Source of the DNA: a virus
IMG/VR virus record: IMGVR_UViG_3300042522_001179
Span: 1 to 64,000 of that record
Length of the DNA stretch: 64,000 nt
Direction: 5' to 3' (one strand)
Positions 9,731 to 57,603 of the stretch are shown one piece after another; position 1 is the first letter of the stretch, and every line of letters starts with the position of its first letter. Below the pieces are notes generated by a model. That model was not told the DNA's origin, ran no database searches, and worked only from the letters and a program-made list of their open reading frames with translations. The translations under genes and the position numbers were made by a program.

Positions 9731-11257
9731 GTGCCTTCTTATCTTCATCTTGCTTACAGGCGTAACGCACGTGTTGCCTCCAAGAATTACAAAGTAAGAG
9801 AAAATAAGAACGAGGATTCACTCCAGCGTGCACGGGATGACTTCGGTTACTTTTGCGAGTACGTAGCCGATAAACCTCCAGCGGAACATCACAAGGAGTG
9901 GCACCGCAAGTTTGTAACAGATCAAGATAGCTCCTGTCTAATCAAGATTGCTGGCCCTAACGTTGACCTGCTTGCTCCTCGTGGCTCAGCAAAAAGTACA
10001 GTGCTCGGCCTGTTGACAGCCTGGGCCATTGGGATCCATACAACTGCCAAGCTTCCTCTTCAGATTCTTTACCTTTCTTACACCGTTGATATTGCACGTT
10101 CTAAGTCTGCAACCATCAAACGAATCATTGAAAGTAAGCGATATCAAGAAGTTTTTCCAACAGTACGCCTTCTTAAAAACGTAACCAGTAATGAGTATTG
10201 GTCTATTGACCATAAGTTTGCTGGTATTGACGTAACGGGTGACGAGCAATTCACACTCTGTGCGGCAGGCTTGAAAGGTTCAGTGACCTCTAAGCGTTCG
10301 CACCTGGTGATGATTGATGACGCCATCAAATCAGCCGCTGATATTGCAAACCCTGACATCAGAAAAATGATGCAGGACAACTGGAACGCGGTGATTGCAC
10401 CAACGATGTTTGAAGGGGCACGCGCCATCTGCCTTGGTACTCGCTTCAGACATGATGACATTCACTCCACCACGTTCAACGAACAAAACAATTGGCAGCA
10501 GATTATTCTGTCTGCAATTCACAATGATCCCAAGACTGGTGAGGAGATGTCCTATTGGCCAGAGATGTGGTCATTGGAGTATCTAAAAGAGAAGAAACGA
10601 CAGGCACCTATTGCTTTTTCCTTCCAGTACATGAATCAAATTATCAGGCAAAACGAACTGTCGTTGGCACCTGAATTGATTGTCAAGGCTGAAATCTCTA
10701 CAGAGTTTGATGCTCTTGGTATTGGCGTTGACTTGTCTGCTGGCATCAAGGAAAAGAACGATTACACAGTTATGATTCTTGGTGGTCGCATTGGCGACCG
10801 CATCCATATTATTGATTACCGACGTATTCGCGTAATGGGTAATTTGGAAAAACTAGATGCTATGAAGGAGCTTCTCAATGATTGGTCTATTCTTGGTCGT
10901 GATGACGGTGGCAATTACTTCCCTACTTATTCAACTTGCGATATATGGTCCGAAGCTGTTCAATACCAAGCATCGCTAGAAGCAGATTTCAAACGTGTTT
11001 GCTTAAGCAATGAAGGACTGTATAACTTAATCTGGCACCCCGTCAAAGGATTCCGCGCAGATAAGTTGGCACGTTTCCGTGGGATTATTGGTATGTTTGA
11101 AGACCGAAAGATTATCTTTAATCGCTACCGTAATTTCACTGCAATGTTTGAAGAGCTAACTAACTTTGGCGTTAGTAGTCACGATGACTGTGTTGATGCG
11201 TTAGTGTGGCTGGTCACAGGTCTTGCACGCAAAGGTCAATTGCAACTTGATTACTAA
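9731..11257 (+). CDS. terL: Terminase large subunit (DNA packaging ATPase/nuclease)
   Basis: Cleaves concatemeric phage DNA and powers its packaging through the portal. It begins with GTG at 9731. The ATPase domain shows Walker A APRGSAKST (about residues 82-90) and Walker B HLVMIDD (about 191-197). The C-terminal nuclease domain shows VDLSAG (about 335) followed by a conserved aspartate-rich end, SSHDDCVDALVWL, near residue 490. Length of 508 residues is usual for the family. The 57-base spacer before it contains the palindrome AAGTTAGTATTAACTT. Gene order, with portal, scaffold and capsid downstream, agrees. Very secure assignment. Confidence 0.95.
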   Translation: MPSYLHLAYRRNARVASKNYKVRENKNEDSLQRARDDFGYFCEYVADKPPAEHHKEWHRKFVTDQDSSCLIKIAGPNVDLLAPRGSAKSTVLGLLTAWAIGIHTTAKLPLQILYLSYTVDIARSKSATIKRIIESKRYQEVFPTVRLLKNVTSNEYWSIDHKFAGIDVTGDEQFTLCAAGLKGSVTSKRSHLVMIDDAIKSAADIANPDIRKMMQDNWNAVIAPTMFEGARAICLGTRFRHDDIHSTTFNEQNNWQQIILSAIHNDPKTGEEMSYWPEMWSLEYLKEKKRQAPIAFSFQYMNQIIRQNELSLAPELIVKAEISTEFDALGIGVDLSAGIKEKNDYTVMILGGRIGDRIHIIDYRRIRVMGNLEKLDAMKELLNDWSILGRDDGGNYFPTYSTCDIWSEAVQYQASLEADFKRVCLSNEGLYNLIWHPVKGFRADKLARFRGIIGMFEDRKIIFNRYRNFTAMFEELTNFGVSSHDDCVDALVWLVTGLARKGQLQLDY

Positions 11258-37814: not shown

Positions 37815-38420
37815 GTGAATCGATTTAAGCAGAGGCTCCAGCATTTAAAGCGTCCGATAAAGAATGTTTTAGATGTTGGAGCGTATAGGGGTGATTTCGC
37901 GCGGGTAATCCAAGAAGTTTTTCCTACTGCAAAAATTAAATGCATTGAAGGCGACGAAAGGCAGGCTTCATTTCTTGAAACATTTGACACAGATTTTTAT
38001 CTGCTTGGGCGTAAAACTAAGCAGGTAGATTTTTACACACTGCCAGAAAATTGTTGTACAACTGGCAGTTCTATCTATAAAGAAAATACGATTCATTACC
38101 AAGAACCCTTGGTGATTAAAAAATGGTGTTATGCATTAGATGATTTGCATTTCCCTTCGTTTGATTTAATTAAACTTGATGTACAAGGAGCCGAGCTTGA
38201 TATTTTAAAAGGAGGTAAAAAATACTTGGCCGAGACCAAGCCTACTTATTTACTTCTTGAAACATCAGTACAGCAATACAATCAAGGGGCACCCCTGGCT
38301 GGAGAAGTGATTTCATACCTTAATAAAAAAGGCTATAACTTACGCGATGTTATTGATGTGCTTTATGATCAAAGCAATCAATTACTACAGGTTGATTTCC
38401 TGTTCGAGTGTGACACCTAA
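37815..38420 (+). CDS. FkbM-family methyltransferase, 201 aa
   Basis: SAM-dependent O-methyltransferase acting probably on a sugar or glycan. The SAM site is VLDVGAYRGDFARV (about residues 16-29), followed by KCIEGDE binding the adenosine ribose, and the FkbM hallmark LIKLDVQGAELDIL (about 117-130). GTG start at 37815. It is followed by two overlapping glycosyltransferase genes, forming a small sugar-modification cassette beside the tail fibre, which may decorate the fibre or the host surface. Confidence 0.85.
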   Translation: MNRFKQRLQHLKRPIKNVLDVGAYRGDFARVIQEVFPTAKIKCIEGDERQASFLETFDTDFYLLGRKTKQVDFYTLPENCCTTGSSIYKENTIHYQEPLVIKKWCYALDDLHFPSFDLIKLDVQGAELDILKGGKKYLAETKPTYLLLETSVQQYNQGAPLAGEVISYLNKKGYNLRDVIDVLYDQSNQLLQVDFLFECDT

Positions 38421-39336
38421 GCAACCTAAAGGCGGAACAGAAATCCTGGTCGAAACACTTAGGCAGAACCTGGATTTCACTGGAATCAACTTGATTGTAT
38501 CTGTTTGCAAGCCTGAATTAATTGTACCTGGCAAAAAGAATATTTTATTACAAGAGTTAAGCTATGACCAGGAAAATGTGCAGGGAATGCGGAGCCCTTC
38601 TTTTGTAGACGCCATTGATTGTTTCATTTATGACTCCCACTGGTGCTATGAAAAATTTAGAGAAAAATTAAATACGCCGCCTTGGAAATCTACTGTAATC
38701 AAAAATGCAACCACTTCTTTTGAGGTAAAGCCAAAACCAAAGGAAAAGCTAAAGCTTATCTACACGTCTACTCCATGGCGAGGGTTGCATGTATTGCTAC
38801 GTGCTTTTCAAATATTAAATCGGAACGATATTGAACTAGATGTTTATTCATCTACAACTATTTATGGCCCAGCTTTTGCAAAATCTGTAGAAGGAAAGTT
38901 TGATTCTTTATTTGAAAATTTACGCAATACGCCTGGGATTAATGTCATGGGTTATGCTTCAAATGACAAAATCCGCGCCGCTTTGCAAGATGCGCATATT
39001 TTTGCGTATCCAAGTGTTTTTGAAGAGACTTCTTGTATTTCAGCAATTGAAGCAATGTGCGCTGGTTGTCAAGCAGTCGTAACAAACTATGGTGCTTTAT
39101 TTGAAACGTGTGGTGAATACGCTGAATTTGTAACTTATGACAACAACCACGAAAGGCTTGCTCATAATTATGCCAAGGTACTGAGCAGAGTGATCGACAA
39201 TTACTGGTACCCTGGAAACCAAGCTATACTTACGGAACAGACAACGTTTTACAACAAGAATTGGACATGGCAAAAAAGATTATCCCAATGGCAGCAGTTA
39301 CTCAAAAAAATAAAAACAAACCAAGACGTGTTTTAA
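38410..39336 (+). CDS. GT4-type glycosyltransferase, 308 aa
   Basis: GTG 38410 is chosen, overlapping the methyltransferase stop; residues upstream in this frame duplicate the neighbour. Features of the GT-B fold: KGGTEILVETL near the start, LIYTSTPWRGLHVLLRAF in the donor domain, and AYPSVFEETSCISAIEAMCAG carrying the E-x7-E motif with the glycine-rich turn. It transfers a sugar from a nucleotide donor. It overlaps the following GT-A gene by about 70 bases. Confidence 0.85.
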   Translation: MTPKQPKGGTEILVETLRQNLDFTGINLIVSVCKPELIVPGKKNILLQELSYDQENVQGMRSPSFVDAIDCFIYDSHWCYEKFREKLNTPPWKSTVIKNATTSFEVKPKPKEKLKLIYTSTPWRGLHVLLRAFQILNRNDIELDVYSSTTIYGPAFAKSVEGKFDSLFENLRNTPGINVMGYASNDKIRAALQDAHIFAYPSVFEETSCISAIEAMCAGCQAVVTNYGALFETCGEYAEFVTYDNNHERLAHNYAKVLSRVIDNYWYPGNQAILTEQTTFYNKNWTWQKRLSQWQQLLKKIKTNQDVF

Positions 39337-44288: not shown

Positions 44289-45545
44289 TCAAACGGGAGT
44301 AAACGCTTTGGACCCTTTTTTCTTTTTGTTTTTTTTCTTGACGTTTTCTTTGTCTGCGGCTTCTTCTCCCAGCACCTCTTGGAACGCCTCATCAAATTGA
44401 GAGGCGACCGTATCCCAGTCAAATGCTTCGTCAGTAGCCCTCTCGTAACAGGCTTGCGCCACGGCATCCAGCTCGTTACGGTTCTCGTACAGCTCCACCA
44501 GGATTTCAGTTAGATGCTCTACGGAGGGGCATGGCATCTCCCGACCGTAGTTTGTATCTACGTCTACGTGATCGCAACGGATCAATTTGCCGTAGCCATC
44601 AAAAATTTCTTTACAAGACGTGTGGTCTGGCACTACTTGAGCCACTTTGCATGCGGCATGTTCAAAGTTAACAAGTCCCCAGCCTTCGCCTTTGCAAGTG
44701 TTGACGCCTACATCAACTGCGTTATAGATGTCATTTAGCATCTCAACGTTTACGTTTGGCGGCGATTGCGTGTTTGTGGTCATAATAATGCGACCGTTTG
44801 GATCTAACCCATTACGCATCATTTCCCGACCAAAGACTGGCATTACATCCCACCCTTGATCTTTCAATCCCATGTGGAGATACAGTTGAACATCTGGACG
44901 ACCCACCGCAAACCGTGCGAAAGCAGCAATCGTGATATCAATGCGCTTGCGGAATTGATTTCGATTTCCGTTAAACACAATAAAGATATCCTCGCGCAGG
45001 CCCAGCCGTTTACGCGCTTCTGCTTTTGACTTGGGTGCGAATTGACCCGTGGTGACACCGTGGGGAATCACAGTGATTGGACGTTCAACGCCCCCTTTAA
45101 TTGCTTCAAGTGCACCAAATTCCGTGTAGCAGATTGCACTATCCCATTCATTAGCAGTATCTGCTAGAGCACCATGCCAGCCGTAGCTATCCATGGGGAA
45201 ATACCCCACAAACTTAAAGCCAATATTTTTTTTTAAATCGGCAATACGTTTGTATTGTTCATTGATAATCCAAATGTCATTCATTGTGAAAACAATATCC
45301 GGACGTTCGCGCTCTACAACTTCGCAAATGCGCTCTTCTCCAAACGGTGCTTGTTGGAACCGATTAGAAGACGGATACATTTTGTAGTCGTCTTGCAGGG
45401 GTGTTGGATCACCCCACCAGTTGTGACCCAAGACCACAATTTCGTACTTATCTTTTAGTCGACTAAGGACATTTTCTGTGACACGGGCAAATCCCGTCAT
45501 AGCAACAATGTCACCACACCAAAGAAGCTTAGGTTTTTTACTCAT
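44289..45545 (-). CDS. GT4-type glycosyltransferase, 418 aa
   Basis: A GT-B fold enzyme: LLWCGDIVAMTGFARVTENV at the start, a donor-domain segment VFNGNRNQFRKRIDITIAAF, and VGVNTCKGEGWGLVNFEHAAC with the E-x7-E motif binding the nucleotide sugar. The C-terminus is a charged Lys-rich tail (KKKNKKKKG). It is a minus-strand gene beside SpeD and prim-pol, separate from both other sugar cassettes. Target unknown; host surface or phage DNA/protein glycosylation are possibilities. Confidence 0.85.
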   Translation of the reverse strand: MSKKPKLLWCGDIVAMTGFARVTENVLSRLKDKYEIVVLGHNWWGDPTPLQDDYKMYPSSNRFQQAPFGEERICEVVERERPDIVFTMNDIWIINEQYKRIADLKKNIGFKFVGYFPMDSYGWHGALADTANEWDSAICYTEFGALEAIKGGVERPITVIPHGVTTGQFAPKSKAEARKRLGLREDIFIVFNGNRNQFRKRIDITIAAFARFAVGRPDVQLYLHMGLKDQGWDVMPVFGREMMRNGLDPNGRIIMTTNTQSPPNVNVEMLNDIYNAVDVGVNTCKGEGWGLVNFEHAACKVAQVVPDHTSCKEIFDGYGKLIRCDHVDVDTNYGREMPCPSVEHLTEILVELYENRNELDAVAQACYERATDEAFDWDTVASQFDEAFQEVLGEEAADKENVKKKNKKKKGSKAFTPV

Positions 45546-50030: not shown

Positions 50031-50179
50031 TGACCAGCAACCTCACCCGGTTCTACCTAGAAGAGGAGTTTGAGTACGTCGCCAAGGCTCCCGTCATCGA
50101 CGTAGAAACTACGGAAGCTGACGAGGTTGAGCAAAAGCTCAAAGATCAAGATATTATTTATACACGCGTTGACTTGTGA
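50030..50179 (+). CDS. Small acidic hypothetical protein, 49 aa
   Basis: Begins in the TGATG shared with the membrane peptide and ends in a TGATG shared with the glycosyltransferase gene. The product is acidic (FYLEEEFEYVAK, TTEADEVEQKL), probably helical. Three-gene coupling supports translation. No family recognised. Confidence 0.55.
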   Translation: MTSNLTRFYLEEEFEYVAKAPVIDVETTEADEVEQKLKDQDIIYTRVDL

Positions 50180-50922
50180 TGTCCAAAGCACCACCCATTG
50201 AGATGATCGGTACCATGGTCCTTAACGGGGCCGATGATCTGTGGAATCATTTTGCAAGTATTGATCATCCCCTCAAACGTTATGTCATCATTGATAACTC
50301 TATGGGCAAGTACCCCGCAGTGCGGGGCACCATCGAACAAATCAAACAGGACAAACCTGAGCATATTGATGAAGTTGTAATACTTCAAAACAATTTGAAC
50401 GTCGGTTTCTCTGGTAGCGTCAATCAAATTGTTCGTCAGAATACCGACTGTTCATATTGGTGCATCTTTTCGGTGGATTGGCATCCACGCCCAGGTGAGC
50501 TAGCCAAACTGGCAGAGCGTCTTACCAAACCATTCACTCAGTTTCTATGCGACGAAACAATGAGTGGATATTCGGCTATGGTATTTAAGCCCCAACTAAT
50601 TCAAAAGGTTGGGCTAATGGACGAAAACTTTTTTCCCGCATACTTCGAGGACAATGATCATCGGTATCGCATGGAACTTACTGGGCTCTCATGGGATTAC
50701 TTTCAGATGGCCTTTGACCACAAAGTTAGCAGCACCTTGCACAGCAATGAGCAATTCAAAAACCGAAACAATGTCACATACCACAACAACGGAATGTATT
50801 ACCTTGAAAAATGGGGAGGATTCCCTGGAAACGAACGATACAAACATCCTTTCAACAGCAAAGCCCCAGTCTCCCACTGGAGCTATGATCCAAAACGAAG
50901 CGAGCAACAGCGATGGATTTGA
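50179..50922 (+). CDS. GT2-family glycosyltransferase, 247 aa
   Basis: ATG 50179 is chosen because it overlaps the previous stop. GT-A features: MVLNGADDLWNHF, YVIIDNSMG, then NVGFSGSVNQIV (glycan-binding loop) and CIFSVDWHP in place of the usual D-x-D, followed by FFPAYFEDNDHRYR with the ED acceptor motif. It opens a sugar cassette with a NAD-dependent epimerase and an RfbH-like dehydrase, so it may transfer the unusual deoxysugar they help make. Confidence 0.85.
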   Translation: MSKAPPIEMIGTMVLNGADDLWNHFASIDHPLKRYVIIDNSMGKYPAVRGTIEQIKQDKPEHIDEVVILQNNLNVGFSGSVNQIVRQNTDCSYWCIFSVDWHPRPGELAKLAERLTKPFTQFLCDETMSGYSAMVFKPQLIQKVGLMDENFFPAYFEDNDHRYRMELTGLSWDYFQMAFDHKVSSTLHSNEQFKNRNNVTYHNNGMYYLEKWGGFPGNERYKHPFNSKAPVSHWSYDPKRSEQQRWI

Positions 50923-51758
50923 GTCTTTACGGCGGGACGGGTATTATCGGCACTTATTTCAACGGTTTGTACGCTTGCAATAACATCCCACGCAACCAGC
51001 TTGAACCCCTGGGTGACGAGGTACTGTACTTAATCAGTACAACAGATAACACTACGTTCAAAGAAAATCCGTTTGTTGACGTAGATACTAATCTTGTGCA
51101 GCTTTTGCACAGGCTGGAAGCATGCCGTCGTGTTGGAATCAAGACATTTAACTTTGTAAGCAGTTGGTTTGTTTACGGCTCTAGTTACAACTGCCCCAAT
51201 GAAGAAGCCATCTGCGATCCCAAAGGGTTTTATTCCGTCACCAAGTATGCCGCAGAGAAGCTTTGCCGCACATACTGCACTGCCCATGGAATCAACTACC
51301 GCATCCTGCGTCTAGGCAATGTTTATGGCCATGATGGTTACGGTGATTACAGGCGCCATGCTTTGCATTACCTGATTAGGCAACTGAAGTGGGACCGGGA
51401 TATTAATGTTTACATCAATTTATCTCGCGACTACATCCATATCTTGGATACCTGTCGTGCCATTGACTTGATCTGCAGGCAAGGCATCCTTAACTCCACG
51501 TACAACATTGGCACAGGCATTGCAACACGCCTAGGCGATTGCCTGGACCAAGCCAAAGACTTACTTAAATCCAAAGCGTGTGTCCTTCGTTCCAATGTTC
51601 CTTGTGACTATGACCAAGCAATTAGATTTTCTTTGGACTGTGGCCGTCTTTTTAGGTTAGGATTTGAACCACAGATTGCCATCCAACAAGGCATCACAGA
51701 TTTATGTCTAAATCGAAAGTTCTGTACTCCGGACCCTACTTTGATGGAGCAGAAGTAG
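50913..51758 (+). CDS. NAD-dependent epimerase/dehydratase (SDR), 281 aa
   Basis: Extended SDR enzyme acting on a nucleotide sugar. The NAD site is GGTGIIGTYF (residues 8-17), the catalytic FVSSWFVYG and YSVTKYAAEK supply Ser and the Y-x-x-x-K pair, and LRLGNVYGHDGYG is typical of sugar epimerases. It overlaps the neighbouring genes on both sides, forming one operon with the GT2 and the RfbH-like dehydrase. Confidence 0.88.
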   Translation: MDLSLYGGTGIIGTYFNGLYACNNIPRNQLEPLGDEVLYLISTTDNTTFKENPFVDVDTNLVQLLHRLEACRRVGIKTFNFVSSWFVYGSSYNCPNEEAICDPKGFYSVTKYAAEKLCRTYCTAHGINYRILRLGNVYGHDGYGDYRRHALHYLIRQLKWDRDINVYINLSRDYIHILDTCRAIDLICRQGILNSTYNIGTGIATRLGDCLDQAKDLLKSKACVLRSNVPCDYDQAIRFSLDCGRLFRLGFEPQIAIQQGITDLCLNRKFCTPDPTLMEQK

Positions 51759-52960
51759 AGGCTGCTATCAAGACGCTTGAGAAAGGTGTCTGGTACCCAG
51801 CCGGTAAAGAGGTTGAAAAGTTTGAACGTCAGTTTTCAAAACGATTCAACTTCAAAGAATCTTTGATGGTCAACAGCGGTAGTTCCGCTAACCTTGTCAT
51901 GGTTGCTGCCCTTAAGGCGTACTATGAATGGCCTGATGGCGCTGAAATTATTGTCAGTGTTGTTGGCTTCCCCACTACTGTCAACCCCATCATTCAAAAT
52001 GGACTGACCCCCAAGTTTGTCGACATCACCTGGAGTGATCTAAACTGGGACCTTGATGAGGTTGAAGATGCAATCACAGACAAAACGGTGGCTGTATTTA
52101 GTAGTCCTGTTTTGGGGAACAGCTATGACATGGATCGTCTGGTCGATATTTGTGAACGCCGTCAAGTCAAGCTCATTGCTGATAACTGCGATTCACTAGG
52201 TTCCCGCTGGAATGATCTGTACCTAACAGAGTATGCAGTAGCTGCATCTTGTTCTTTTTATCCTGCACACCACATCACTACCCTTGAAGGTGGCATGGTG
52301 TCTTCTGGTAATCCAGAGCTCATTCGTTTAGCTCGCCAGTTTGCCTGGTGGGGACGCGACTGCTATTGCGTTGGTGCTTGCAACATGCTTGCCAACGGCA
52401 GTTGCAACAAGCGGTTTGATAAGTGGCTCGAGGATTACGATTGCGTGGTCGACCACAAGTATGTGTTCAGCCAGATTGGTTACAACCTAAAGCCTTTGGA
52501 TCTGCAAGGTGCAGTTGGTCAAGTTCAATTACGCAAGTTTGATGAAATCCACGACTTACGTCGTGATAATTATTCTTTTATCAAAGAATGTTTTGAAGGC
52601 TTCCCTTCTGAAGTACGTGTGATTGACGAAAAGCCACAAGCTGAAACGTCATGGTTTGGTGTGCCAATTGTATGTGACAATCCTAAAGTGAAGCATGCAC
52701 TTCAGCAGTATCTCGAAAAGAATGGTATTCAAACGCGCAATTATTTTGCTGGTAATCTACTACTGCATCCAGCTTACAAGCATCTTGGCAATCCCAAAGA
52801 TTATCCAAATGCATACGAAGTACTGAAACGCGTATTTTTCCTTGGTACTTCCCCTACCTTGATTGATAGCGACTTGAATTACATTAAGAAAATCCTTCAA
52901 GACTTCATGGCAACTGCCCCTATTGGTCTCGATGGATACAGCTCTGCTTTTGTTATGTAG
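51704..52960 (+). CDS. RfbH/E1-like CDP-sugar 3-dehydrase (DegT/AHBA fold, Fe-S), 418 aa
   Basis: A DegT/DnrJ/EryC1-fold protein in which the PLP-binding lysine is replaced by histidine: SFYPAHHITTLEGG (His189 at the lysine site). Four Cys are placed as in the E1 dehydrase: Cys162 (DNCDSLGS), then 57 residues, Cys220-x-Cys222 (RDCYC) and a further Cys at 234 (GSCNKRF). This is the signature of PMP/iron-sulfur 3-dehydrases that remove the C3 hydroxyl in 3,6-dideoxyhexose synthesis. An E3-type reductase partner is not seen, so the host may supply it. Unusual in a phage. Confidence 0.88.
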   Translation: MSKSKVLYSGPYFDGAEVEAAIKTLEKGVWYPAGKEVEKFERQFSKRFNFKESLMVNSGSSANLVMVAALKAYYEWPDGAEIIVSVVGFPTTVNPIIQNGLTPKFVDITWSDLNWDLDEVEDAITDKTVAVFSSPVLGNSYDMDRLVDICERRQVKLIADNCDSLGSRWNDLYLTEYAVAASCSFYPAHHITTLEGGMVSSGNPELIRLARQFAWWGRDCYCVGACNMLANGSCNKRFDKWLEDYDCVVDHKYVFSQIGYNLKPLDLQGAVGQVQLRKFDEIHDLRRDNYSFIKECFEGFPSEVRVIDEKPQAETSWFGVPIVCDNPKVKHALQQYLEKNGIQTRNYFAGNLLLHPAYKHLGNPKDYPNAYEVLKRVFFLGTSPTLIDSDLNYIKKILQDFMATAPIGLDGYSSAFVM

Positions 52961-53224: not shown

Positions 53225-53378
53225 ATACTCAGAGGAAGATCGACTTGCCGATTACTTTTGGAAGCTGGAAAGTGTAATGCCCCAGCCTCCAAGCAATTGG
53301 GCTGTTAATGCAAAACCATGTAAGTGGCTTAAACTAATAAAAGAAAGAAATAGTAAAGCCTCTGATGGCACAAGATGA
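53217..53378 (+). CDS. Small hypothetical protein, 53 aa
   Basis: TTG at 53217 is the best start, overlapping the previous stop by 8 bases. Contains YSEEDRLADYFWKLESVMP and a basic end. It overlaps the following small basic gene by 14 bases. No family recognised. Confidence 0.5.
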   Translation: MAKYSEEDRLADYFWKLESVMPQPPSNWAVNAKPCKWLKLIKERNSKASDGTR

Positions 53379-53646
53379 TAGCAAATACTCCAAGCCGGAA
53401 TTGCGCGAGAGTATTAAAGATCGTGTAATGGCTGGATCTAAAGGTGGTAAGCCGGGCCAATGGAGTGCACGCAAGGCTCAGCTTGTTGCTCAGAAGTATG
53501 AAGATGCAGGTGGTGGGTACAAGGGCGGTAAAGGTGATAGCCAAAAATCTTTAGAGAAATGGGGCAAAGAAAAATGGCAGACCAAAGACGAGTACGAGAA
53601 ACGCGGTAAGGCTAAAGCTGCAGCCAAGAGATATAAAGATGGCTGA
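53365..53646 (+). CDS. Small basic conserved viral protein, N-terminal part, 93 aa
   Basis: A Lys/Gly-rich protein containing KPELRESIKDRVMAGSKGG, QWSARKAQLVAQKYEDAGG and SLEKWGKEKW. I recognise this series from a small protein widespread in phages and some giant viruses (DUF5872-like), of unknown function. In those proteins the segment carried by the next gene normally follows in the same chain, so here the two halves are encoded as separate adjacent genes. Confidence 0.72.
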   Translation: MAQDDSKYSKPELRESIKDRVMAGSKGGKPGQWSARKAQLVAQKYEDAGGGYKGGKGDSQKSLEKWGKEKWQTKDEYEKRGKAKAAAKRYKDG

Positions 53647-53845
53647 CAAAGCAATTCAATCTGGATATACCAAGCGTTACCTGCCAGAGAAAGCATGGGC
53701 CTCATTGTCTAAAGAAGAACGTGAGGAGACTGACCGTAAGAAACGCGCTGGCAGTAGAGAAGGAAAACAATTTGTACCCAACACTGAAACAGCAAAGAAA
53801 GCTGGTAAAGCAGCCCGTGCATCCAAACGTTATAAAGATAAATAA
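53639..53845 (+). CDS. Small basic conserved viral protein, C-terminal part, 68 aa
   Basis: Overlaps the previous stop by 8 bases. Contains KRYLPEKAWASLSKEEREETDRKKRAG... reading on to GKQFVPNTETAKKAG, which looks like the second half of the same conserved viral family. The overlap may allow coupled translation, or the pair may be a split of an ancestral single gene. Function unknown; strongly basic and likely nucleic-acid binding. Confidence 0.7.
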   Translation: MADKAIQSGYTKRYLPEKAWASLSKEEREETDRKKRAGSREGKQFVPNTETAKKAGKAARASKRYKDK

Positions 53846-53878
53846 CTCACGTATACTTAATAAAGATTCGTGATCATC

Positions 53879-54073
53879 ATGGAAAAGAAAAAAGCTATTC
53901 CCCCCAAGAAAGCTGTGCCTCCCGCAAAAGGTAAAGCCGCTCCTCCCGTGAAAGGCAAGCCTGCTCCCCCTGTCAAAGGCAAAGGTGGCGCAACTGATAA
54001 GCAAGCGGAAGCCCGCGAAAAGTTTAAAGAGATGATCGCCAAGAAAAAAGCGGACGCTGCCAAAAAGAAATAA
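53879..54073 (+). CDS. Lys/Pro/Ala-rich basic protein, 64 aa
   Basis: ATG at 53879 (a GTG at 53870 is also in frame). The first half consists of Pro/Lys/Ala/Gly repeats (GKAAPPVKGKPAPPVKGKGG), the second of a Lys/Glu helix ending in Lys residues, a histone-H1-like or DNA-condensing composition. It is followed by the structured RNA region. Function unknown. Confidence 0.6.
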   Translation: MEKKKAIPPKKAVPPAKGKAAPPVKGKPAPPVKGKGGATDKQAEAREKFKEMIAKKKADAAKKK

Positions 54074-54613: not shown

Positions 54614-55270
54614 ATGAGTTACCTCAATCACAACCTGCCTACGTTTACGTGTTACATCCGAAACGAGTTCCTATACAACCACAAACAAGGCCATGGCGAG
54701 GTGACGTTGTGCGATGTCCACTCAGTGGCCTCTCTGGAGAAGCGCGTCCCTTTATTTGAAGTCTTCCTGGAGAATGGTGTCAACTGGACAAGGCGTCCAA
54801 TCCACGCTCTCTGCTGGAAGCCAGGTGCCCCTAAGCCCGAATTAAATGAGTGCATGTGGTGGGATTGTTTCTCTCCGTATATCGATGTGCAGGTTAGGTC
54901 ACGCCTCTCAAATTTACGTGCGCAGCTGATCAACTTCAAAGGGGAGAAGAAAGGCGGCATCTACATGTTCACCCTTGACTGGTCATGGGAATCTAAATCA
55001 ACTCTTAATACAAACTTCAGCGAAACACCTGAGCACAAGTGTGCGCATTTCTTCCGGATGGATGATGGCAACTTCTATGCATATCCCAATAACCGAGTCA
55101 TTTGGTACGACGACGCCTGGCTTAAGAACCGTATTGAAAAAAACCCTGGCTACGAGATTGACTTGACTGAGTACAGCGTAGAGAACTCACGGATGATTGA
55201 GACGTCCAACCATTTTATATACGAGACAACAGCCACAGGTGAACAGGATTTACAGTTAGTTTTGGAATAG
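54614..55270 (+). CDS. Hypothetical protein, 218 aa
   Basis: ATG at 54614, 29 bases after tRNA-like element 2. A mixed alpha/beta protein rich in Trp, Asn, His and Cys residues (CMWWDCFSPYIDVQ, FTLDWSWES, HFFRMDDGNFYAYPNNRV), without membrane segments. Its composition is natural but no domain is recognised. Transcription from the 54181 promoter would reach it. Confidence 0.72.
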   Translation: MSYLNHNLPTFTCYIRNEFLYNHKQGHGEVTLCDVHSVASLEKRVPLFEVFLENGVNWTRRPIHALCWKPGAPKPELNECMWWDCFSPYIDVQVRSRLSNLRAQLINFKGEKKGGIYMFTLDWSWESKSTLNTNFSETPEHKCAHFFRMDDGNFYAYPNNRVIWYDDAWLKNRIEKNPGYEIDLTEYSVENSRMIETSNHFIYETTATGEQDLQLVLE

Positions 55271-55285
55271 TAGTACCTGGCTTTG

Positions 55286-55534
55286 GTGCCAACTTCCAAA
55301 GAAAAACTCCAGCGCAATCGGCAAAAGTTTCTTGAGTACAAGAAGACTTTAAATTGCCAGCACTGTGGGTTGAATGATCATCGTGTCCTTGAGTTCCACC
55401 ACGTTGGTGATAAGGACCATAACATATCAAATATGGTTAATCACGGATACGGCTGGCGCCGCATCGAAGAGGAAATAAAGAAATGTATTCCTCTATGCTG
55501 CAACTGCCATAGGTTAGAACACTGGGTTAATTAA
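55286..55534 (+). CDS. HNH endonuclease, 82 aa
   Basis: GTG at 55286 (a TTG at 55283 is also possible). CQHCGLNDHRVLEFHHVGDKD holds the first zinc knuckle and catalytic HH, WRRIEEEIKKCIPLCCNCHRLEH the second knuckle and final His. This is a compact HNH nuclease. It ends convergent with the 690-residue minus-strand gene, overlapping by 4 bases. A homing or free-standing role is likely, as with the HNH proteins at 24129 and 43596. Confidence 0.85.
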   Translation: MPTSKEKLQRNRQKFLEYKKTLNCQHCGLNDHRVLEFHHVGDKDHNISNMVNHGYGWRRIEEEIKKCIPLCCNCHRLEHWVN

Positions 55535-57603
55535 CGTCCAATAATACTGCCAGCGTTGAAACGGTTTAGTAAGTTTTGGAAACCAGATCCAGCTTTATCC
55601 CACCAAGGGCGACCTACAGTACGAGTACCAGCCACTGATCCATAGGGTACTTGAACAGGCTTACCGTTGAGAATAGCCGTTCCCATGCGTGGTTGAATAG
55701 TTGGTGTAGGCCCTGTATAAGTTGAATTAGGACTGGCGGGCTGGTTACGAGTAATCCAATCCTTTCCTGTTTGACCTTTATATGCACGGTTCAAGGCCTC
55801 ACTGGTTTCAATAATACCAAGTCCAGCAAGAGCTCCAGCAGCAACAGGTAGTCCGCCACCAACAATAGCTGCAGGCCTGGCGTATCCAGCCGCGCGTAAA
55901 CCTTGCAATGCTTTAGCGGTACCTCCACCAACAGCAGAACCAACTGCTGTGTTAACCGCAGCAGTAGTTCCTGCTTGCTGGTAATCACCACGAGCTAAAG
56001 CGTCAATTACCGCAGGGTCCATAGCGGTTCCAATAGCACCTGCAGCTAAGCCACCTAAACCTAACCCTTGAATTGGTTTTGATTGTTCAACTAAATTTGC
56101 AACTCTTTTATCTAATAGTTTGTTTGCGGCTTGTGGCCGCAATTTATCTCTATTAATAATGAGTTTACTTACACCTTCTTGTGATTTTCCAAAAGGATCC
56201 AAAGGATCTACTGGTGTTGAATACGTGTCAAGTTCTTGAATATTACTTGCGTTATAGCGAGGATATACATATTTAAATAGTTTATCAAACTCGTCTACTT
56301 TAAAAGGTGAGTAACTTGCTTTATCAGAAGGAGGTAAAATACCTAACTGACGCAAGTCCGTTTTACTTGCAAAAGAACCAGATGGGCTTATGCCTTGTCC
56401 TTGTGCAGGGAATCGACTTACTTTTCCTGCAATGGCTTCGGTCGGAGGCGTAGAAGGCTCTCCAACATTTGGAACAAGACGCGCAAAACGTTCAATTGCT
56501 TGAGACGTTGTTATGTTTTCCGCTTTTGCAAGTGCCTCTAAGTTTTCTTGTAGAATGTCTCCTGGTTTTTTATTTGAACTAAACCTTTCTTTTGTAGGTG
56601 TTTCTTTCTTGCTTTGATAGACAAAAGGCAAACCACGTTCCGCAAGTAACGCTTGCAAATCGCCAGTAGTCAGTTCTCCTCTTGCGCCAATCAAGTCTTT
56701 TCTAAAATGCATATCTCCGCTACTTCTAAGACCCCAAGAAGGACCGGTGCCAGGTCCCAACTCTTCATATTGTTTAAACCGCGCCCTTGGGTCTACTGTT
56801 AAATAATCTTTTTCAGTGTCAGCCGGGTTATCTATTTTAATACTTCCTGTATATAAATACTCTGCTTCTTTAGAAGGATCTGCATTAATGCGGGACACAT
56901 AGATTGAAGGATTAGTCCCGGCCAGTCTTTGCCCTTGCCCCCAGTTGCCTTCTGCATAAGTATATTGTGGCGCGCCTGTGTTTCCCCAAATATAACCAGC
57001 AGTTTGCCCTGGTATTTTTGCAGATAATGTATCTATTTTACGTCCAAGTCTAGCTGTTTCAGCGTTCCATCCTTCTGAGCTTTCAAATTGATTGATTGTT
57101 TTGCCTAGCTTATCTCCCAAGATTTCTGCATAATCTTGTGCAAAACGCGCAGAGTTTGGACCAGGTGTAACTGTGAGGGCTTGTATATCACCCTCGGGGA
57201 AGATTGTTTTGTTTGCAACAGCCTGTTGGTAAGAGCCTAGCTCTGAACTAGGTACACCTGGTTTTGAAGTTAAATACTCCGGATAAAACTTTTCAGTTTG
57301 ATATAGATTTTCGTTTTTAATGTTTTTATCAAATACGCGACTGGTTGCAATACTTTGGCTTAAGGGAATAATAGGAACAAGTGTTTTATTTGCAAGCACT
57401 CCACCACGAGAAGTATCAAACAAACCTGGGCCAGCACCGGGAAACATCCGTTGCGCTTCTTGTTGTTTAATTTTTGCCGTGTCTTCAAGCAGGTTTTGGA
57501 AAGGGAGAAAGGCTCCAGCAGGCGCAGCCAAACCAAAAGCACCTACGCCGCCAAGTGTTTGTAGTGCCTGTTTCTGTTCTTCTGTTAATTTTTTATCAGC
57601 CAT
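55531..57603 (-). CDS. Large virion-type protein with C-terminal Gly/Ala segment, 690 aa
   Basis: The first 30 residues include a Gly/Ala hydrophobic segment; the next 450 are polar with many Pro, Gly and Thr residues; about residues 520-620 form a second long Gly/Ala hydrophobic block; the end is Arg/Gly-rich. It resembles the ejection-type proteins at 665-5670 although it lies 50 kb away on the other strand. Its start overlaps the Dps-like gene stop by one base. Possibly a second copy-type internal virion protein. No family recognised. Confidence 0.75.
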   Translation of the reverse strand: MADKKLTEEQKQALQTLGGVGAFGLAAPAGAFLPFQNLLEDTAKIKQQEAQRMFPGAGPGLFDTSRGGVLANKTLVPIIPLSQSIATSRVFDKNIKNENLYQTEKFYPEYLTSKPGVPSSELGSYQQAVANKTIFPEGDIQALTVTPGPNSARFAQDYAEILGDKLGKTINQFESSEGWNAETARLGRKIDTLSAKIPGQTAGYIWGNTGAPQYTYAEGNWGQGQRLAGTNPSIYVSRINADPSKEAEYLYTGSIKIDNPADTEKDYLTVDPRARFKQYEELGPGTGPSWGLRSSGDMHFRKDLIGARGELTTGDLQALLAERGLPFVYQSKKETPTKERFSSNKKPGDILQENLEALAKAENITTSQAIERFARLVPNVGEPSTPPTEAIAGKVSRFPAQGQGISPSGSFASKTDLRQLGILPPSDKASYSPFKVDEFDKLFKYVYPRYNASNIQELDTYSTPVDPLDPFGKSQEGVSKLIINRDKLRPQAANKLLDKRVANLVEQSKPIQGLGLGGLAAGAIGTAMDPAVIDALARGDYQQAGTTAAVNTAVGSAVGGGTAKALQGLRAAGYARPAAIVGGGLPVAAGALAGLGIIETSEALNRAYKGQTGKDWITRNQPASPNSTYTGPTPTIQPRMGTAILNGKPVQVPYGSVAGTRTVGRPWWDKAGSGFQNLLNRFNAGSIIGR

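Follow-up and report, generated by a model that had tools for sequence, protein, structure and literature searches.

A predicted E1-type iron-sulfur sugar 3-dehydratase of a phage-type branch, encoded in a three-gene cassette of an S-EIV1-like virus

The stretch of DNA analyzed here (the window; 64,000 nucleotides, positions 1 to 64,000 of the IMG/VR virus record IMGVR_UViG_3300042522_001179) carries three plus-strand genes in the order GT2-like, SDR, and E1-like, each overlapping its neighbor (Table 1). The GT2-like gene at 50176-50922 agrees with the first-pass annotation, which had placed a GT2 in the same operon as the dehydratase. The parent record is a fragment of 64,182 bases that is related to Synechococcus phage S-EIV1 (79 kb) and includes phage genes for terminase, head, tail-spike-like, endolysin, primase, and exonuclease proteins. 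S-EIV1 has the flanking exonuclease and the small downstream gene and lacks the GT2/SDR/E1 trio at this site, which marks the cassette as variable cargo. These patterns are best explained by an S-EIV1-like freshwater cyanophage that carries a three-gene surface-sugar cassette. A scan of the cassette for promoters and terminators found sites no more numerous than in shuffled sequences.

Table 1. Features of the cassette, in positions of the window.
Feature	Position	Strand	Details
GT2-like glycosyltransferase, first gene of the cassette	50176..50922	+	phrog_29879; overlaps SDR start
Compact extended-type SDR, predicted 4-ketoreductase	50913..51758	+	281 aa; GGTGIIG, S84/Y107/K111; overlaps E1 start by 55 bases
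Predicted E1-like PMP/[2Fe-2S] sugar 3-dehydratase, phage-type CxC-x11-C subfamily	51704..52960	+	418 aa; open ORF
C162 codon, first predicted [2Fe-2S] ligand (= E1 C193)	52187..52189	+	Alignment
H189-H190 codons (SFYPAHH), His replacing the DegT-family catalytic lysine	52268..52273	+	Alignment, conservation
Predicted [2Fe-2S] loop (C220-x-C222-x11-C234); 4-aa insert; C226 not conserved	52361..52405	+	Alignment, conservation

Other parts of the window hold further genes of note. The cassette is followed on the plus strand by three successive small, strongly Lys/Ala-rich ORFs (53365-54073; 93, 68, and 67 aa), the third of which is a PPxKGKxAPPVKGK-like repeat; they resemble basic proteins with a role in nucleic-acid binding or in packaging. 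A 690-aa ORF on the minus strand (55531-57603) has no Pfam or PHROG match, and in S-EIV1 the corresponding region has an annotated sulfate adenylyltransferase gene; DNA similarity close by is 84.7%. Moreover, the glycosyltransferase family PHROG 2170 is also matched at 38347-39336 (+) and 44289-45545 (-), which together with the cassette GT2 brings the glycosyltransferase-like genes of this phage to at least three.

The last gene of the cassette encodes a DegT-family protein (Pfam match, 2.9e-70). The first-pass annotation had noted that His replaces the DegT lysine and that four cysteines follow the E1 layout with a longer last spacing, and both observations hold at the exact positions. The SFYPAHH motif runs from S184 to H190, and H189 aligns with H220 of E1, the residue changed in the structure 3bb8 (H220K). 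The cysteines, arranged as C162-x57-C220-x1-C222-x11-C234 compared with x57/x1/x7 in E1, align with the four E1 cysteines, with a four-residue insert between the third and the fourth. Among 86 aligned proteins, H189, H190, and C162 are kept in all 86, and C220, C222, and C234 in 85. Both C162 and H189 are also kept in every member of a set of 217 CxC-x11-C proteins, which was selected by the C220/C222/C234 pattern alone and not by C162 or H189. The fifth cysteine of the loop, C226, is present in 56 of these 217 proteins and is not conserved. This conservation of His and Cys among the relatives is far above chance. The top PDB sequence matches are the Yersinia E1 structures 3bcx (E = 2e-67) and 3bb8 (E = 3e-66), with ColD next. 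An AlphaFold model (pLDDT 81, pTM 0.85; pLDDT below 50 at residues 187-189 and in most of the Cys loop, 225-237) likewise has 3bb8/3bcx as its best Foldseek matches (E = 6e-29). E1 thus comes first both by sequence and by fold, in comparisons like those that had been proposed as a check. The identity of an ordinary lysine aminotransferase is rejected because His occupies the lysine position in all 217 relatives, and that of ColD because all four Fe-S cysteines are present. Taken together, these findings identify the product, at the level of sequence, as an E1-type sugar 3-dehydratase with a DegT fold, a His in place of Lys, and a predicted [2Fe-2S] cluster. Its predicted activity is C3 deoxygenation of an NDP-4-keto-6-deoxyhexose.

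A narrower assignment to RfbH fares less well. RfbH is the best named family in profile searches, but the RfbH equivalog NF011936 gives 357 bits for the window protein and 360-375 bits for its relatives, which is below the cut-off of 423; a canonical cyanobacterial RfbH scores 679 bits. Canonical cyanobacterial and viral RfbH proteins have a CxC-x7-C motif, whereas the x11 spacing is found throughout the phage-type subfamily, in which the bacterial members have C-x-C-[VT]-G-x2-N-x6-C in common. In a tree made by a quick method and with a long central branch, the phage-type clade (56 rows, viral rows intermixed with bacterial ones) is split from canonical RfbH with an SH-aLRT of 100. Thus, of the RfbH/E1-type identity in the first-pass annotation, the E1-type Fe-S dehydratase stands and strict RfbH is rejected by score, spacing, and clade. 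The phage-type E1 proteins appear from these comparisons to be a sister clade to canonical RfbH that occurs in cyanophages, Prochlorococcus, and scattered bacteria. The CxC-x11-C motif could serve as a marker for telling this branch from RfbH during annotation.

This step had been described as one that phages rarely encode. That description is wrong given the many viral loci and an existing annotation: 519 candidate loci encoding a relative were found in an IMG/VR scan, the best 80 of them at 63-96% identity, and the copy in phage S-H68 is already annotated as CDP-4-dehydro-6-deoxy-D-glucose 3-dehydratase. Individual checks covered the best 80 of the 519 candidates and a motif sample of at least 118 loci, two sets that partly overlap; in the motif scan, the E1 of all of the at least 118 viral loci has the x11 spacing. 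Phage-type E1 is common in viruses, with well over 100 viral loci. Annotated carriers are phages S-H68, S-B05, S-B43, RB11-B, and RN05-S, with E1 proteins at 61-62% identity to the window protein, and one marine single-cell virus. In the literature collection searched, no paper deals with the phage-type E1 subfamily; viral "rfbH" is named once, within a list (PMC11295528). In addition, canonical CWC-x7-C RfbH genes are present in viral contigs (47 confirmed among 62 pattern matches), which means that two separate E1 branches entered viruses.

Bacterial relatives of the phage type are found in Prochlorococcus, Nitrospirae, Myxococcales, Bdellovibrionales, and others, and as two copies in Nostocales. 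In a phylum-wide sample of cyanobacteria, 75 of 386 genomes have an E1-like match. Among these 75, the match is of the phage type in HT-58-2 alone (55-57%); the matches in the remaining 74 are at 30-43%, with the x7 spacing in 29 of the 29 motifs read. A 5.3-kb contig of a Rhodothermales MAG has the order GT2-SDR-E1 and 78% identity to the window, and is probably phage DNA that was binned with a bacterial genome.

The SDR gene had been called an epimerase. Its product keeps GxxGxxG and the Ser84/Tyr107/Lys111 triad in a shortened Rossmann region, and it lacks an Asp-Glu pair, which suggests that a 4-ketoreductase fits better than an epimerase. The alternative of an NDP-hexose 4,6-dehydratase is rejected, as the protein has SSWFVYG, without the catalytic Asp-Glu pair of the STDEVYG type. 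A full-length orthologue of this SDR is present in exactly those six annotated phage records whose E1 is above 60% identity. Among the motif-scan loci listed, 67 viral loci with both flanks were counted on both sides of E1: an SDR directly adjoins E1 in 43 (19 upstream and 24 downstream) and is not adjacent in 24, whereas an upstream-only count gave just 25 to 30 of 87. The occurrence on either side indicates that adjacency survives altered gene order.

Genes for dTDP-type sugars also occur beside the dehydratase in sister phages. RmlC and a full RmlB are encoded near E1 in seven of 20 S-EIV1-like records and in S-H68 and RB11-B. The neighbors tested score above the cut-offs for dTDP-glucose 4,6-dehydratase and RmlC, and the RmlB neighbors fall far under the cut-off for CDP-glucose 4,6-dehydratase, which argues against the CDP substrate proposed in the first-pass annotation. 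Neither RmlB nor RmlC was found in the window's own record (64.2-kb fragment) or in a 96% relative (84.6 kb), so substrate supply is assumed for these two. The ascarylose route is known from Yersinia. By analogy, the dehydratase, 3,5-epimerase, 3-dehydratase, and SDR would together resemble this route, but on dTDP.

E1 catalysis requires two electrons. An E3 homologue, which the first-pass annotation had suggested seeking elsewhere in the genome or host, was not found in the viral records searched, of which the window's own is a fragment. A Salmonella E3 control matches Fer2, FAD_binding_6, and NAD_binding_1; neither Fer2 nor NAD_binding_1 was detected in 23 viral records. When 13 viral records were searched directly with E3, the only matches were of ferredoxin size and lay in two records, where they correspond to a 100-aa ferredoxin of S-H68 and RB11-B, and the S-EIV1-like records had no match. 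No E3, RfbF, or RfbG was scored in the at least 118 viral loci of the motif scan. The Nostocales strain HT-58-2, with a complete chromosome and two phage-type E1 copies, has no FAD_binding_6 and no E3 match, and its Fer2 frames are all 274 aa or shorter. A full-length E3 was not found in the cyanobacterial genomes searched, including several with canonical RfbH. The absence of E3 is therefore rejected as a mark of the phage-type subfamily, and the E3-free state may hold for cyanobacterial E1s generally. One gammaproteobacterial MAG with a phage-type copy has an E3-like protein (40%).

For SpnQ, an Fe-S homologue of E1 that acts on a dTDP sugar, ferredoxin or flavodoxin systems replace E3 (PMC8987622). 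Based on this precedent and on the lack of an E3 in the records searched, ferredoxin is the likeliest electron donor of the phage-type E1. Within the window, the gene at 54614-55270 (+), named "ferredoxin" by PHROG 3704, was rejected as the donor, as its product lacks both a Pfam match and the cysteine motif of ferredoxins; the annotation seems to be erroneous. Elsewhere, one viral contig (L076) has, roughly 1.2 kb downstream of E1, a plant-type ferredoxin gene at 10077-10376 (Fer2, E = 1e-24), and two others (L056 and L075) have similar ferredoxin genes.

From the family, fold, key residues, gene neighborhood, and lack of an E3 in the records searched, all read from sequence, we infer a probable chemistry, substrate, electron donor, and glycan target. 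The E1-like enzyme would hold PMP and a [2Fe-2S] cluster, and PMP would bind an NDP-4-keto-6-deoxyhexose as a Schiff base. This substrate is most likely a dTDP sugar, supplied by the host rhamnose pathway or by phage RmlB/RmlC where present. His189 would take the C4' proton, with expulsion of the C3 hydroxyl. Two electrons, passed singly via the cluster, would then convert the glucoseen adduct to NDP-4-keto-3,6-dideoxyhexose; they are probably supplied by a plant-type ferredoxin, either that of the photosynthetic host or the phage's own. The 4-keto group may next be reduced by the SDR, which would yield an ascarylose-like dTDP-3,6-dideoxyhexose if RmlC had acted, and the GT2 may attach the 3,6-dideoxyhexose to a host surface polysaccharide. 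We favor with moderate confidence this reading of the cassette as a ferredoxin-fed dTDP-4-keto-6-deoxyhexose 3-dehydratase, an SDR 4-ketoreductase, and a GT2 that acts on the host surface.

One alternative is a canonical CDP pathway, in which the enzyme would be an ordinary RfbH, take CDP-4-keto-6-deoxyglucose from the host, and rely on the host's E3 in completing an O-antigen dideoxysugar of the host. RfbH being the best named family would fit, and some hosts may have the pathway, as judged from the E1/RfbH-like matches in cyanobacterial genomes (75/386). However, the protein scores too low for RfbH and falls in a clade of its own, the adjoining phage genes are of the dTDP type, and the cyanobacterial genomes searched yielded no full-length E3, so we regard this alternative as unlikely. 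A second possibility is that the chemistry is the same and the sugar is placed on the virion, for example on a tail or capsid protein. The same genome has a large tail-spike-like gene and virion genes, and cyanophages have large glycosyltransferase sets; nevertheless, LPS genes of cyanophages are usually proposed to change the host surface, with effects on other phages or on grazers (PMC9602691), which makes this placement of the sugar improbable as well. Finally, the enzyme is very unlikely to work in practice as a 4-aminotransferase that uses glutamate and PLP to yield a 4-amino-6-deoxysugar: the DegT fold, the missing E3, and the side activity of SpnQ without reductase in vitro are compatible with this, but E1 itself does not transaminate (PMC8987622), and the invariant His (217/217) and retained Fe-S cysteines are sensible only with electron delivery.

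The favored dTDP- and ferredoxin-based reading concerns a distinct E1 branch that is common in aquatic viruses and occurs with dTDP-type genes and a reductase-like SDR, without E3. The E1 route to 3,6-dideoxyhexoses is usually regarded as CDP-based with a dedicated E3 reductase, and these sugars are immunodominant and phage-recognized in bacterial O-antigens. A broader reading is more tentative, and we consider it possible rather than probable: the branch may be an undescribed, E3-free E1 clade with an enlarged CxC-x11-C loop that is directly reduced by photosynthetic ferredoxin and, together with the SDR and in some cases phage RmlB/RmlC, produces dTDP-3,6-dideoxyhexoses during infection. If so, remodeling of surface glycans would be coupled to light-driven electron flow, with host photosynthetic electrons powering the changes that cyanophages make to surface sugars, and one could ask whether ferredoxin docks at the altered Fe-S loop.

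Compared with known systems, the phage protein is most like E1/AscC/RfbH, the CDP-4-keto-6-deoxyglucose 3-dehydrase of Yersinia (PDB 3bcx), with which it shares the DegT fold, the His for Lys, and C-x57-C-x-C. It differs in having x11 rather than x7 before the last Cys and in its separate clade, and its gene has a compact SDR partner instead of E3 or RfbF/RfbG neighbors. ColD (GDP-4-keto-6-deoxymannose 3-dehydratase), the second PDB sequence match, also has His for Lys and catalyzes C3 dehydration, but it has no Fe-S cluster (PMC8987622), and the GRDCYC stretch of the phage protein is absent from ColD in the alignment. SpnQ, the dTDP-4-keto-2,6-dideoxyglucose 3-dehydrase of the spinosyn pathway, is an Fe-S E1 homologue without a dedicated E3, as is predicted for the phage enzyme; this likeness is by description and not by sequence, and SpnQ differs in its 2,6-dideoxy substrate and its role in natural-product biosynthesis. 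Phages S-H68, S-B05, S-B43, RB11-B, and RN05-S encode E1 proteins of the same subfamily and have an SDR orthologue in each genome, whereas S-H68 and RB11-B differ in additionally having RmlB, RmlC, a cytidylyltransferase-like protein, and a ferredoxin.
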